Of a stretch of 64,000 bases of DNA, positions 3,610-59,669 are shown piece by piece. Source of the stretch: Fictibacillus arsenicus (GTDB taxonomy: Bacteria > Bacillota > Bacilli > Bacillales > Fictibacillaceae). Below the pieces are notes generated by a model. That model was not told where the DNA came from, ran no database searches, and worked only from the letters and a program-made list of their open reading frames with translations. The DNA is taken from contig NZ_CP016761.1 of assembly GCF_001642935.1 (NCBI RefSeq), positions 930,001-994,000 of the forward strand, in the 5' to 3' direction. Both the position numbers and the translations under genes were made by a program. Each line of letters begins with the position of its first letter. Within the stretch, counting starts at the first letter, position 1.

Positions 3610-3629
3610 CTTACAGCAACTTTTCTAAA

Positions 3630-3939
3630 GGCTGTTTTCTAAAAGATTGGTAGGTACCTTGGTGTATATTTGTTATCTATCTCCATTGACTAGTTGATTT
3701 GAGAGCAAGGTACGAGACTCCTGCGTGCCAACCACCTGAAGATACTTCTTGCAAGGCATGCGACGAGGAACGCACTTCGTAAGGATTTGCTTGTAGACGC
3801 AGGAGCACACATACTTCCTTGAAGGTGAGACTTCTAAAGGCGCAAAGCGCGAGAAGGCTCACCGCCCGCCCCGCGGAAAGCGAGCATCCTGGAGCGGAAA
3901 TCAACCACTTCCAAAGGCATCAATGATTGCGAAATAAGA
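3630..3939 (+). mobile_element. MITE-like structured repeat, copy 2 (+ orientation, long variant)
   Basis: About 310 bp. The left end GGCTGTTTTCTAAAAGATTG is perfect; the right end is worn (GCGAAATAAG instead of GCGAAAACAGCC). Compared with the short form it has an extra module of about 90 bp after GACTCCTGCG, containing CTTGCAAGGCATGCGACGAG and GACGCAGGAGCAC. The same module is in copy 3. The GGTGAGAC...GGCTCACC hairpin with its GGCGC-AAA-GCGC cap follows. The element separates the MBL gene from the esterase operon; no target duplication is visible. Confidence 0.85.
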
Positions 3940-10982: not shown

Positions 10983-11017
10983 AAAACAGCTCACGCGGGT
11001 GAGCTGTTTTTCTTTTT
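10983..11017 (+). terminator. Terminator of the 61-residue gene, T-tract adjoining repeat copy 3
   Basis: A perfect 12-bp stem (AAAACAGCTCAC with GTGAGCTGTTTT) with a GCGG loop is followed by TCTTTTT. The T-tract at 11010-11017 is also the left target copy of repeat copy 3. Confidence 0.9.
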
Positions 11018-11285
11018 GGCTGTTAGATGTGGTTGATTTCTGCTCCAGGATGCTCGCTTTCCGCGTGGCGTGCGGTGAGTCTCATTCAAGGAAGCATTTG
11101 TGCTCCTGCGTATGCGGGCAAATCCTGCCGAGGTGGGATTCCTCGTCGCATGCCTTGCAAGAAGAATACTCAAGTAGCTGGCACGCTGCTCCCGCAGGAG
11201 TCTCGCACCTTCCGCTCCAATCAACTTGTCTACGAAGGGTCTAAACAAAAACGAATCGAAAGGAATATACTTTTAGAAAATAGCC
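11018..11285 (-). mobile_element. MITE-like structured repeat, copy 3 (- orientation, long variant)
   Basis: 268 bp, from GGCTGTTAG to CTTTTAGAAAATAGCC. It is flanked by TTCTTTTT (11010-11017) and TTCTTATT (11286-11293), a 7/8 target duplication. It carries the same long module as copy 2 (CTTGCAAGGCATGCGACGAG in the element's own orientation) and the GTTGATTTCTGCTCC/GGATGCTCGCTTTCCGC landmarks. It landed in the terminator T-tract of the preceding gene. Confidence 0.9.
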
Positions 11286-11449
11286 TTCTTATTGGTTTGA
11301 GAATTGTGGCTAGAAAATATAGTTCATTTTGATGATTTATTATGGCATAAATATATACTCACCATTGGAATGATAAATAATGGGTGTTTAGTAACCGGTC
11401 AAAAGGGATACATATGAGGAAGTAATACAAATTGAGAGGAAGTATAACG

Positions 11450-17078: not shown

Positions 17079-17102
17079 GTGTAAACAATAAAACTTTTGC
17101 TA

Positions 17103-17323
17103 AACTCTTTTCTAAAAGATTGTTGCCACTGAGAGATTTTGCCCGAAAATCTTCATTGCATAGTTAATTGGAGCGAAAGGACGAGACTCCTGCAGGATGA
17201 GTGGTACAGGTGAGACCACTCAATGTCGCGAGGCGACGAGGGGGCTCACCGGCCACCCTACGGAAAGCGAGTCCTGTAGCGGAAATTAACCTCTTACATA
17301 CAACAAAGTTTACAAAAACAGCT
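17103..17323 (+). mobile_element. MITE-like structured repeat, copy 4 (+ orientation)
   Basis: About 221 bp, from CTCTTTTCTAAAAGATTGTTG to ACAAAAACAGCT. The apical hairpin reads GTCGC-GAG-GCGAC rather than GGTGC/GCACC, a compensated change. GGTGAGACCACTC pairs with GAGGGGGCTCACC. The right end abuts the A-tract that is the T-tract of the minus-strand terminator at 17324-17354. No target duplication is recognisable. Confidence 0.85.
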
Positions 17324-17354
17324 AAAAAAATACACCTCAGAAGAGATGCATTTT
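17324..17354 (-). terminator. Terminator of the minus-strand membrane gene at 17353
   Basis: Read on the minus strand, ATGCATCTC pairs with GAGGTGTAT (two G-T pairs) around TTCT and is followed by seven Ts. The T-tract touches repeat copy 4. Confidence 0.75.
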
Positions 17355-26219: not shown

Positions 26220-26296
26220 CATGATCACCTGTTCCTTTGAAGGTATATGACTAATTATATCAATTTCCTGTAGAAAATATCTCTTGTTTTTTGTTT

Positions 26297-26506
26297 AGTG
26301 TCTTTTCTAATAAATAGTTGCTTAAAAAACATCACTGACAAGTTGATAGGAGCGTAAGACGCGAGATTCCTGGGGGATCAGTGTGACAGGTGAGACACCT
26401 AATGGCCCAAAGTGCCGAGGTGGCTCACCGCACGTCCCCCCGGAAAGCGAGTACCTGAAACGGAGATCAACTACTTCCAAGAGCAACAAAGCTTGCGAAA
26501 ACAGCC
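26297..26506 (+). mobile_element. MITE-like structured repeat, copy 5 (+ orientation), perfect 8-bp duplication
   Basis: 210 bp, from AGTGTCTTTTC to GCGAAAACAGCC, flanked on both sides by TTTTGTTT (26289-26296 and 26507-26514). The core hairpin stem reads GACACCT/AGGTGGC where other copies read GACTCCT/AGGAGGC, a compensated pair of changes. It lies between the 51-residue gene and the phoD promoter. Confidence 0.93.
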
Positions 26507-26665
26507 TTTTGTTTAAAGGAATTGTTAAAAAAAATAAGCCGAAAGTGTCGATGCTTTTTAATCTTTTACTGGTGATTTCTTATTCTTTCATTCGATTTTC
26601 AATTCTTCTTATAAAAAAAGTAATGAAAAAGTCCCAGCTATTTCTTTTTCATATTTTTTTTTCGG

Positions 26666-28746: not shown

Positions 28747-28759
28747 CCTGTTTATTTTT

Positions 28760-29037
28760 AGCTCTTTTCTAAAGCATTGTTGCTTTAGGCTTTTTCTATT
28801 CTCATCATTGCAAGTTGATTGGAGCGCAAGGTTGCCGACTCCTCGAAAATGAAAATCACATTTTCTTCGTGCGATGAAACGCTGTCGAAGCCTTCCTTGT
28901 CCTACGGGACGAGCGGTCAGGTGGAGACTCCTAATGGCGCAAAGCGGCAGGAGGCTCACCGCATGCCCCGTGGAAAGCGAGCAGCCTGGAGCGGAAATCA
29001 ACTACTTTTAAAAGCAACAATGTATGCGAAAACAGCC
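28760..29037 (+). mobile_element. MITE-like structured repeat, copy 6 (+ orientation), perfect 8-bp duplication at the topB stop codon
   Basis: 278 bp, from AGCTCTTTTC to GCGAAAACAGCC, flanked by TTATTTTT at 28752-28759 and 29038-29045. The right copy contains the topB stop codon. It has a distinct inserted module of about 60 bases with a GAAAATG...CATTTTC hairpin before the usual GGTGGAGACTCCT...AGGAGGCTCACC stem. Confidence 0.93.
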
Positions 29038-31134
29038 TTATTTTTTATCCTTCATCGCAGCTTTCAAAGCATCAGCTAAACTGTTGCCAAAACCTTCGTC
29101 TTCTTTGTTGTTTGCACTGTATTTTTTCATAAGCTGCCGTTCTTCACGCTTTGTGACTTTCTTTTTCATTCCATCTGCTTTTTCAACGACGTTACATGGC
29201 TTGCACTGGAAGTACGTGCCGGCCTTTCCGTTATGCAACTCCATCTTTTTCTTGCACTGTGGACAGCGTCGGTTAGAAAGCTTCGGATCCTTACGGCGGC
29301 GGTATGAACATTCACGATCAGAGCATACGAGCACCTTGCCGTCATGCCCTTTAACTTCTTTAAGAAGCTTGCCGCAATCTGGACACTTTGAGCCTGTTAA
29401 GTTATGAGCACGGTATTCGTGTGAACTCGTTTTGATTTCCATTACCAGCTGCTTCGTCTGCTTGCGGATATTTTCTAAAAACTCTTTCGGATTGCCATTA
29501 CCGCGTGCAATGGCTTCAAGCTGTTGTTCCCATTTAGCTGTCAGCTCTGGTGATTTCAACTCATCGTTCACAAGTTCAATGAGCTGTTTTCCTTTCGGAG
29601 TAGGGTGCAGCTTATTGTTTTTACGATCCAAAACTTCAGAACCAAGCAAGCGTTCGATAATATCAGCACGTGTGGCTGGCGTTCCCAGGCTGTATTTTTC
29701 CATTCGTGATAAAAGGTCAGCTTCAGTAAAGCGTGCAGGCGGTTCAGTCAGCTTCTTCTCCAGATTAACGTCTTTTACAGATAACGTTTGACCTTCTTTT
29801 AAACTAGCTAAAGCTCTAGGAGATTCTTCTTCTTTGCCTGATAATACTTTAAAACCTGCATCAACCACTAAAGTTTCTCTCGCGATAAATGATTCACCCG
29901 CAATGTTTAACGTAGCCGTTAACGTTTCGGACTTATATGCCGGGTAAAAGAGAGCAAGGAACCGGCGTGCGATCAGATCATACAATTTTCGCTCGTCATT
30001 ATCTAGATCACCGAGGTGAAGCGGTTCGTCTGTCGGAATAATCGCATGGTGATCCGTAACTTTTGCGTCGTTAAAAACTTTCTTCGCAACGACTTTCCCT
30101 TTTTGCTTCAAAAGAGGCTGAACTTCTTCACGGTATCCACCCGATATTCCCTGAAGACGATCGTACATCGTGTTTTCCATGTCTTTTGTTAAGTAGCGCG
30201 AGTCGGTTCTTGGATACGTAACAAGTTTGTATTGTTCATAAAGTTTCTGCAGAACAGAAGATGTCTTCTTAGCTGAGAAACCAAATCGGCGGTTTGCATC
30301 TCGCTGCAGTTCTGTCAGGTCATATGGCATCGGGTGAGCTTCTGTTTTTTCTTTCTTTATAAGTGACTCAACAGTTGCTGACTGCTCCTTCACCTTTTTC
30401 ACGATTTCTGCTGTTTTTTTCTCATCAAAGAGACGTTTTTCTCCGTTTCGTTCCCAGGAGGCTTTTAATATACCGACTGTCGCATCAATTGTCCAAAAGT
30501 CCTTCGGCTGAAATGAGTTGATTTCTTGCTCACGTTCTAGAATCATCGCAAGGGTAGGTGTCTGTACTCGGCCAGCAGACAATGGATCATTATATTTAGT
30601 TGTAAGTGCACGCGTCACATTAAGCCCGATCAGCCAATCGGCTTCTGAACGACAGACCGCAGATTGATACAAGTTGTCATATTGTTTTGCCGGCTTTAAC
30701 TGGTTGAATCCATCACGAATCGCTTTATCTGTCTGCGATGATATCCAAAGACGCTTCACCGGCTTTTGCCATCTTACTTTTTCCATGATCCACCGGGCGA
30801 CGAGTTCACCTTCACGCCCTGCATCAGTTGCGATAACAAGCTCATTTAGATCTTTTCTTTTGGCAAGCTGTTCAATCGACCGGAACTGGTGACTAACCTG
30901 GCGGATGATCTTCAATCCCATATGCTTCGGTATGATCGGCAGATCCTCTAAACGCCATTGCTTATACTGTTTGTCATAGTCCTCAGGCATCTTTAATTCT
31001 ACAAGGTGTCCGAGTGCCCACGTTACAATGTGTTTCGGTCCTTCAATATAGCTTTTATTTTGTTGCTTGCATCCGAGAACACGGGCAAGATCACGCGCCA
31101 CACTCGGCTTTTCAGCAAGAATCAGTTGTTTCAT
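29038..31134 (-). CDS. topB: DNA topoisomerase III (type IA)
   Basis: The 698-residue protein has an N-terminal Toprim domain starting MKQLILAEKPSVARDLARVLG, with NELVIATDAGREGELVARWIM carrying the metal-binding acidic residues. The type IA core includes the YPRTDSRYL segment with the catalytic tyrosine. The C-terminus has two zinc-ribbon-like motifs (CPDCGK...CSDREC and CPQCKK...CKPC) and a lysine-rich tail. It relaxes negative supercoils and decatenates DNA. The ATG at 31134 follows GGAAAGGGG. Its stop codon lies inside the target duplication of repeat copy 6. Confidence 0.94.
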   Translation of the reverse strand: MKQLILAEKPSVARDLARVLGCKQQNKSYIEGPKHIVTWALGHLVELKMPEDYDKQYKQWRLEDLPIIPKHMGLKIIRQVSHQFRSIEQLAKRKDLNELVIATDAGREGELVARWIMEKVRWQKPVKRLWISSQTDKAIRDGFNQLKPAKQYDNLYQSAVCRSEADWLIGLNVTRALTTKYNDPLSAGRVQTPTLAMILEREQEINSFQPKDFWTIDATVGILKASWERNGEKRLFDEKKTAEIVKKVKEQSATVESLIKKEKTEAHPMPYDLTELQRDANRRFGFSAKKTSSVLQKLYEQYKLVTYPRTDSRYLTKDMENTMYDRLQGISGGYREEVQPLLKQKGKVVAKKVFNDAKVTDHHAIIPTDEPLHLGDLDNDERKLYDLIARRFLALFYPAYKSETLTATLNIAGESFIARETLVVDAGFKVLSGKEEESPRALASLKEGQTLSVKDVNLEKKLTEPPARFTEADLLSRMEKYSLGTPATRADIIERLLGSEVLDRKNNKLHPTPKGKQLIELVNDELKSPELTAKWEQQLEAIARGNGNPKEFLENIRKQTKQLVMEIKTSSHEYRAHNLTGSKCPDCGKLLKEVKGHDGKVLVCSDRECSYRRRKDPKLSNRRCPQCKKKMELHNGKAGTYFQCKPCNVVEKADGMKKKVTKREERQLMKKYSANNKEDEGFGNSLADALKAAMKDKK

Positions 31135-39464: not shown

Positions 39465-39475
39465 AGATAATAAAA

Positions 39476-39698
39476 GGCTGTTTTCGCAAACTTGTTGCTC
39501 TTGAAAGTGGTTGATTTCCGCTCCAGGATGCTCGCTTTCCGCGGGGCGTGCGGTGAGCCTCCTCGGCGCTTTGCACCGTTAGGAGTCTCACCTGTCCCGC
39601 TGATCCCGCAGGAGTCTCGCACCTTGCACTCCAATCAACTTGCCAATGAAGAGAATGAAAGAAATAACCCAAAAGCAACAATCTTTTAGAGAAGAGCC
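39476..39698 (-). mobile_element. MITE-like structured repeat, copy 8 (- orientation), perfect 8-bp duplication
   Basis: 223 bp, from GGCTGTTTTCGCAAAC to TTTTAGAGAAGAGCC, flanked by TAATAAAA at 39468-39475 and 39699-39706. It sits three bases after the DinB stop and just before the DinB terminator. The apical hairpin is GGTGC-AAA-GCGCC in element orientation. Confidence 0.95.
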
Positions 39699-39703
39699 TA
39701 ATA

Positions 39704-39740
39704 AAAAGAGTGGTTCCTTAAATGGAAACCACTCTTTTTG
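39704..39740 (+). terminator. Terminator of the DinB gene, separated from it by repeat copy 8
   Basis: AAAGAGTGGTTCC pairs with GGAAACCACTCTTT around TTAAAT (one mismatch), followed by TTG. Confidence 0.85.
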
Positions 39741-42959: not shown

Positions 42960-43037
42960 GACAGACCTCCTTGAAATATTCATATACTAATAAGCTATGG
43001 TTATCAGCATGAAGTGTTCTGTATTGTTTAAATAAAA

Positions 43038-43262
43038 GGCTCTCTCTGGAAAAGATTGTTGTTTTTGACGAATTTGTTTCCTACTCTTCTTTGACAAGTT
43101 GATTGGAGCGGAAAGACGCGAGACTCCTGCGGGATCAGCGGGACAGGTGAGACTCCTAAGGGCGCAAAGCGCCGAGGAGGCTCACCGCACGCCCCGCGGA
43201 AAGCGAGTGTCTTGGAGCGGAAATCAACAACTTTCAAGAGCTCAAATTTTGCATAAACAGCC
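43038..43262 (+). mobile_element. MITE-like structured repeat, copy 9 (+ orientation)
   Basis: 225 bp, from GGCTCTCTCTGGAAAAGATTGTTG to GCATAAACAGCC, flanked by AAATAAAA and GAACAAAA (6/8 identity, a worn duplication). It has the most consensus-like core: GGTGAGACTCCT, then GGCGC-AAA-GCGCC, then AGGAGGCTCACC. Its right end lies in the T-tract of the minus-strand terminator at 43263-43307. Confidence 0.9.
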
Positions 43263-43307
43263 GAACAAAAAAACAGCAAAGACTTTTCACTCGTGATGTC
43301 TTTACTG
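43263..43307 (-). terminator. Terminator of the coiled-coil gene at 43302
   Basis: On the minus strand CAGTAAAGAC pairs with GTCTTTGCTG and is followed by TTTTTTTGTTC. The stop codon lies within the first arm. Confidence 0.85.
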
Positions 43308-59426: not shown

Positions 59427-59633
59427 CGTTCTTATTTAAAGATTGTTGTTTAATGGATTATTTTTTCTTTCTCCTTTCTCTTCATTGCAAGTTGATTGGA
59501 GTGAAAGGTGCGTGCCTACTACCTGAGAAGCTTCTCGCAAGGCATGCGACGAGGGGGCTCACCGCACACCCTGCGGAAAGCGAGCATCCTGAAATGGAAA
59601 TCAACCCTTTCAAATAACAACAAAGAAATAGCC
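59427..59633 (+). mobile_element. MITE-like structured repeat, copy 10 (+ orientation), in the GH3 leader
   Basis: About 207 bp, worn ends (CTTATTTAAAGATTGTTG left, AAAGAAATAGCC right). The core is shortened: after GGTGCGTGCCTACTACCTGAG it has the CTCGCAAGGCATGCGACGAG piece of the long variants, joined directly to GGGGGCTCACCGCAC. It has lost the left half of the main hairpin. It lies wholly within the transcribed leader between the operator and the GH3 ribosome site. Confidence 0.82.
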
Positions 59634-59669
59634 CTAAATTTTAATAAAACTTATAAGGAGCGCGGGTGA

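Follow-up and report, generated by a model that had tools for sequence, protein, structure and literature searches.

Bacterial MITEs, a known kind of non-autonomous transposable element, have been reviewed with Correia/NEMIS, RUP, bcr1 and the QMITE of Coxiella among the examples (PMC10969869). The repeat described here resembles them in being short, non-coding and bounded by terminal inverted repeats (TIRs), in having target duplications, in occupying AT-rich intergenic sites and in forming a stable hairpin. It differs from them in its IS1595-type ends, its spread over a whole order and its GC-rich core, which is conserved like the TIRs and is found with several kinds of ends. The IS1595 type-A elements of other Bacillales (L190, L191, L193, L198, L201 and others) are autonomous insertion sequences that share its ends, of the form GGCTSTTTTC...GATTGTTGY, at 20-24 of 24 bases, together with the 8-bp duplications, whereas they encode a transposase of about 336 amino acids and lack the core. 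Bhal-1 of Bacillus halodurans, a stem-loop family of 74 bp with 36 copies (PMC2267715), is likewise an intergenic stem-loop repeat of a Bacillales genome; the comparison is one of description, not of sequence, and in the available part of that report Bhal-1 is described without TIRs, target duplication or wider spread. REP/REPIN sequences with their RAYT genes are also high-copy extragenic hairpins, and a RAYT-like gene, which scores below the family cut-off, is present in the genome analysed here, whereas the present repeat has TIRs and 8-bp duplications and shows no linkage to that gene. MITEs and IS1595 elements are known kinds, while the family, its spread and the covarying core common to different ends are new as far as the open-access literature and Rfam go. 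The open-access literature searched yielded neither an earlier description of the repeat nor its sequence strings, although an earlier description is possible.

Architecture of the repeat and its copies in the window

The window, the whole 64-kb stretch of Fictibacillus arsenicus DNA that was analysed (930001-994000 of the contig), contains about ten copies of the repeat, as found by BLAST and profile search. The hairpin at 43104-43228, which a preliminary description had delimited as the repeat core, is real and forms the inner part of copy 9, but these boundaries are too short: the whole unit occupies 43038-43262 and is flanked by an 8-bp target duplication. The unit is non-coding, about 220-230 bp long (216-232 bp in most two-ended copies), and has GGCT...AGCC TIRs. 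It is composed of a 24-nt TIR, a variable spacer, an imperfect hairpin core of about 130 nt, a short spacer and a second 24-nt TIR. When the flanks of 30 oriented copies are aligned, the sequence conserved outside the core is GGCTCTTTTCTAAAAGATTGTTGCTTTTGA on the left and TCAAGAGCAACAAAGTTTGCGAAAACAGCC on the right. The parts of copy 9 are as follows.

43030-43037, no strand: left copy of the target duplication, AAATAAAA, read in the sequence and matching the right copy at 6 of 8 positions
43038-43061, + strand: left TIR, GGCTCTCTCTGGAAAAGATTGTTG (family consensus GGCTCTTTTCTAAAAGATTGTTGC), matching IS1595-family ends
43062-43097, + strand: variable AT-rich spacer
43098-43228, + strand: structured core, a long bulged hairpin
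43229-43239, + strand: short right spacer
43240-43262, + strand: right TIR, ending in ...ACAGCC
43263-43270, no strand: right copy of the target duplication, GAACAAAA

The other copies in the window are distributed over both strands.

1517-1747, + strand: copy 1; site empty in relatives G002, G014 and G013
3625-3937, + strand: copy 2, containing an internal insert of about 95 bp; same site occupied in G002 and G014
11012-11289, - strand: copy 3, with a different internal domain
17100-17331, + strand: copy 4
26292-26522, + strand: copy 5, with TTTTGTTT as its target duplication; the site is empty in G002 and G007
28759-29051, + strand: copy 6, longer by an internal segment of about 57 bp (about 28843-28900); present in G002 and G014 as well, in the latter without this segment
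32800-33044, - strand: copy 7, perfect duplication TTTATTTA
39476-39698, - strand: copy 8, a full element with the perfect duplication TAATAAAA at 39468-39475 and 39699-39706; empty in G002 and G013
59430-59643, + strand: copy 10, with the left half of the core replaced; present in G002 as well

Searching the complete genome, a single contig of 4,055,461 bases, gives 334 first-look candidates. The window and twenty evenly spread 20-kb pieces together contain 38 copies in 464 kb, a density that corresponds to about 300-330 copies per 4.06-Mb genome.

At orthologous sites, one species may have an internal segment of about 57-95 bp that the other lacks (28843-28900 of the window; L138, L134, L133, L137, L135 and L139). 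The presence and absence of these segments suggests exchange between copies, and not all similarity among the copies therefore reflects selection. The orthologous insertions are few and obscured by the swapped segments; among them, the core of copy 6 has diverged by 3.1% versus 8-10% in its flanks, and in the others the core is not less diverged than the flanks.

Ends, target sites and distribution

The flanks of the repeat show the length of the target duplication. Exact flank matches occur at a length of 8 in 8 of the 19 two-ended copies of this genome and at almost no other length, and in a larger set from several genera the duplication matches at seven or more of its eight positions in 55/69 two-ended copies. 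Related species provide the corresponding empty sites: each of copies 1, 5, 8 and 9 is missing from its site in at least one of them, and conversely relatives hold insertions where this genome has none. Particularly, the site of copy 9 is empty in G002 and G014, so that copy 9 is an insertion absent from these two relatives.

All 38 sampled copies are essentially intergenic. Among the 37 that could be placed, convergent gaps are over-represented (11 copies, versus 41 of 244 gaps) and divergent gaps are rare (4 copies, versus 59 of 244), while tandem gaps hold 22 copies in mixed orientation to the tandem genes, 14 opposite and 8 the same. In 21 of 69 elements the junction coincides with the end of a strict terminator-like hairpin and its T tract, compared with 111 of 1507 (7.4%) AT-rich intergenic controls (odds ratio 5.5, p = 4.5e-8). 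The element favours AT-rich DNA beside transcription terminators, and the target duplication can leave the terminator intact.

The ends point to the source of the mobility. Elements L190, L191, L193, L195, L198, L201, L206 and L212 possess inverted repeats such as GGCTGTTTTCGTATAGATTGTTGC, several of them with perfect 8-bp duplications, and their transposase is assigned to IS1595 by two libraries, with NF033547 at 208 bits (cut-off 75) and PF12762. In L193 (2102-2653, - strand) and L191 (945-2477), extra genes lie beside the IS1595 transposase, one of which resembles a 2'-5' RNA ligase by eye. The repeat has the features of an IS1595-family MITE, namely a short, non-coding unit, TIRs, an 8-bp duplication and the ends of autonomous IS1595 elements, and we assign it to the IS1595-type MITEs with a probability of about 0.8. 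As the ends, the duplications and the relatives suggest, the repeat would have been copied in trans by an IS1595-family transposase recognising GGCT...TTGTTG ends. Insertion at AT-rich intrinsic terminators would do little harm. The core is not contained in the autonomous IS1595 elements examined, and the repeat therefore did not arise from them by simple deletion. No IS1595 transposase is detectable in this genome, nor in most of the genus, and several relatives contain only fragments of one. This makes current activity less likely and leaves the assignment of origin unaffected, since a relic MITE does not need a resident transposase. An ISL3 origin, prompted by the GGCT ends and the 8-bp duplications, was also considered and rejected: the ISL3 transposase is found in 0 of 18 genomes of the genus, and the sampled ISL3 loci have other inverted repeats.

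Within the order Bacillales, 196 of 299 sampled genomes and 77 of 116 genera contain the repeat, and each copy-rich genome has hundreds of copies. A pattern scan of 84,980 species gives at least 120 loci, and among the matches listed all but one are from Bacillales; the lone exception is a record from Streptomyces sp. I6 (L327). Only 15 of 72,556 plasmids contain the repeat, and no match was found among 50,697 phage records or, by pattern search, in 2.9 million viral contigs. The plasmid copies inspected are core fragments rather than autonomous carriers, and one set lies inside a Tn3-borne formaldehyde gene cluster. In L145 and L146, gnd and a hypothetical gene flank the core fragment in a formaldehyde-assimilation cluster common to several plasmids, and in L146 it is adjoined by a Tn3 transposase. 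A comparison with Rfam, proposed in the preliminary description, matched no family: the window gives no match at gathering scores, the region around copy 9 gives only sub-threshold matches at chance level with E up to 10, and divergent cores give none with E up to 0.5.

Covariation in the hairpin core

The core of copy 9 (43098-43228) folds as a single long bulged hairpin with an RNA MFE of -66.2 kcal/mol, corresponding to z = -5.25 against 200 dinucleotide shuffles. The helices described earlier, CTCCT/AGGAG in copies 6, 8 and 9, CACCT/AGGTG in copy 5 and CCACTC/GAGGGG in copies 4 and 7, are found in the sequence, as are the caps GGTGC/GCACC, GTCGC/GCGAC and GGCGC/GCGCC. The GGTGAG/CTCACC stem is present as well, but in fewer copies than the nine of ten first reported: it is exact in seven of ten and nearly so in one (copy 6), while copies 3 and 10 contain another domain in its place.

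In 35 aligned copies of this genome, 11 of 38 pairs have changed on both sides. The resulting 27 both-side-changed cells compare with 5.2 +/- 1.8 in shuffles, and 0 of 500 shuffles reach 27; sliding the partners by 1-3 columns leaves 0-5 such cells. Standard pairs make up 97.9% of the pair cells. For 130 distinct cores drawn from many genera in a structure-blind alignment, there are 94 co-changing branch events versus 26 expected when column and branch rates are kept. Of these events 71 are compensatory; 1,000 partner shuffles average 4.5 and never exceed 17, and partners slid by 1-4 columns give 0-19, although the fold tested on these cores and on the distant families came from the same consensus, a circumstance that favours the fold and that the slid and shuffled controls limit without removing. 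The earlier proposal that paired changes preserve the fold is thereby borne out at the level of the structure. The statistically supported pairs envisaged as its check are seen as this structure-level excess and not one by one, as no single pair passed (best E 3.9) in a pair-by-pair covariation test of 67 sequences, which with its rate-uniform null had no power. One position of the central stem is occupied by TA (58), GC (15) or CG (6) pairs in the distant families and has undergone 8 compensatory events, and the families have the internal loops and a near-invariant T.G pair in common.

The covariation is real at the structure level, and it is well supported that the paired structure is under selection, or at least maintained. 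Regarding the original interpretation, selection on RNA or single-stranded DNA structure, the maintained pairing holds, whereas the place of the hairpin as the core of a TIR-bounded mobile element had been missed. Because this core belongs to a mobile element with 8-bp duplications, selection may act during propagation rather than on a host RNA. Changes on a single side comprise 77 events to G.T versus 59 to A.C (p = 0.14), with a mild excess of G.T on the + strand when cells are counted, and a search of the copy 9 element found no promoter-like site; with the two kinds of change nearly balanced and no such site, RNA and single-stranded DNA are not separable. Part of the covariation could originate from homogenisation of copies, as in the domain swaps at orthologous sites, or from quasi-palindrome correction.

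Possible roles of the conserved core

Conservation of the core equals that of the TIRs, and the spacers vary freely. Among 29 complete elements the identity is 0.81 in the TIRs, a value biased upward because the elements were picked by their TIRs, 0.79 in the core, and 0.31 and 0.37 in the two spacers. In Neobacillus, Metabacillus and Bacillus, the same core is located between IS1595 ends of a second type, GGCTNTGTTAA...TGTTGA, with perfect duplications in 3 of 5 cases (L227, L249 and L290). Moreover, further families (G043, G128, G203, G126, G070 and G132) contain the inner motif ACTCCTGCGGGA...GAGACCCCGCAG...GAGGAGGCTC...CCGCGGAAAGCGAG within other outer stems and flanks. In G126 and G128 the core is present in repeats without these TIRs, partly in tandem arrays, and IS1595 therefore cannot be the sole mover of the core. 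At L355 and L362 of G126 and at places in G128, cores without IS1595 ends are arranged head to tail at spacings of about 174-254 bp. With considerable reservation, we suggest that the core is a transferable structured module, apart from the transposon ends, which has become associated with two or more types of IS1595 ends and with other repeat vehicles in Bacillales and has a conserved role, as DNA or RNA, that would help unrelated non-autonomous elements to spread or be tolerated.

The most likely reading of that role, though one we hold at somewhat less than even odds, is that the core is maintained as a DNA hairpin while the element propagates. For instance, an extruded hairpin would draw both element ends together or bind a protein, and a role of this type would explain why the core is as conserved as the TIRs against drifting spacers and recurs with other ends. 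The conserved loops and the near-invariant T.G pair hint at recognition beyond what simple end pairing needs. Next in likelihood, if rather unlikely, is a role as RNA, in which the hairpin of a read-through transcript would be a target of binding or cleavage (by RNase III, for example) or would lend stability to adjacent mRNA ends, making insertions tolerable or useful. The strong covariation, the internal loops, the near-invariant U.G and the mild excess of G.T cells agree with such a role, as does the predominance of tandem and convergent gaps, which adjoin gene 3' ends; functions of this kind are reported for other bacterial MITEs (PMC10969869). However, copy 9 has no promoter-like site, the G.T bias does not reach significance when events are counted, placement just behind terminators implies little transcription, the orientation to tandem genes is mixed and no Rfam family matches. 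It is improbable that the fold is free of selection and that the paired changes stem from quasi-palindrome correction by template switching together with gene conversion among the hundreds of copies. Although the segments swapped at orthologous sites suggest that copies do exchange sequence, correction should erase mismatches and bulges, yet the same loops and T.G pair persist across families; conversion within a genome leaves the different pair types of the central stem in different families unexplained, and the spacers of the same elements are not homogenised.

A service of the core to the host chromosome, as a site for a nucleoid or replication protein or as a marker of own DNA, with the MITE as its vehicle, is quite improbable: about a third of the sampled Bacillales genomes lack the repeat and copies are polymorphic between close species. 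The presence of hundreds of copies on chromosomes throughout the order, the several vehicles with the core in common and the scarcity of the repeat in plasmids, phages and viral contigs would be in line with this service, but the plasmid and phage sets are expected to be poor in relevant hosts. Movement of the hairpin as single-stranded DNA by the REP-associated tyrosine transposase that the genus has in single copy (G000:C1:3685349-3685681) is highly improbable. A RAYT-like Y1 gene occurs once in every genome of the genus and is present in most repeat-bearing genomes of the family. Here the gene (L109 1459-2019) reaches 60 bits on NF047646, for which the cut-off is 80. Its candidacy as the mover was rejected on the TIRs and 8-bp target duplications of the elements, on the finding of no core within 1.5 kb of the 30 Y1 loci examined, and on G019, G020 and G126, which are rich in copies without a Y1 match.

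The repeat occurs in two thirds of the sampled Bacillales genomes, yet it has no Rfam family. With its targeting of sites beside terminators and its swapped segments, it is well suited as a natural system for studying how MITEs spread and how their copies exchange sequence. Should the core indeed be a module that several non-autonomous elements have in common, the covariation of its fold would offer a direct way into the question of why elaborate hairpins are retained in bacterial MITEs.
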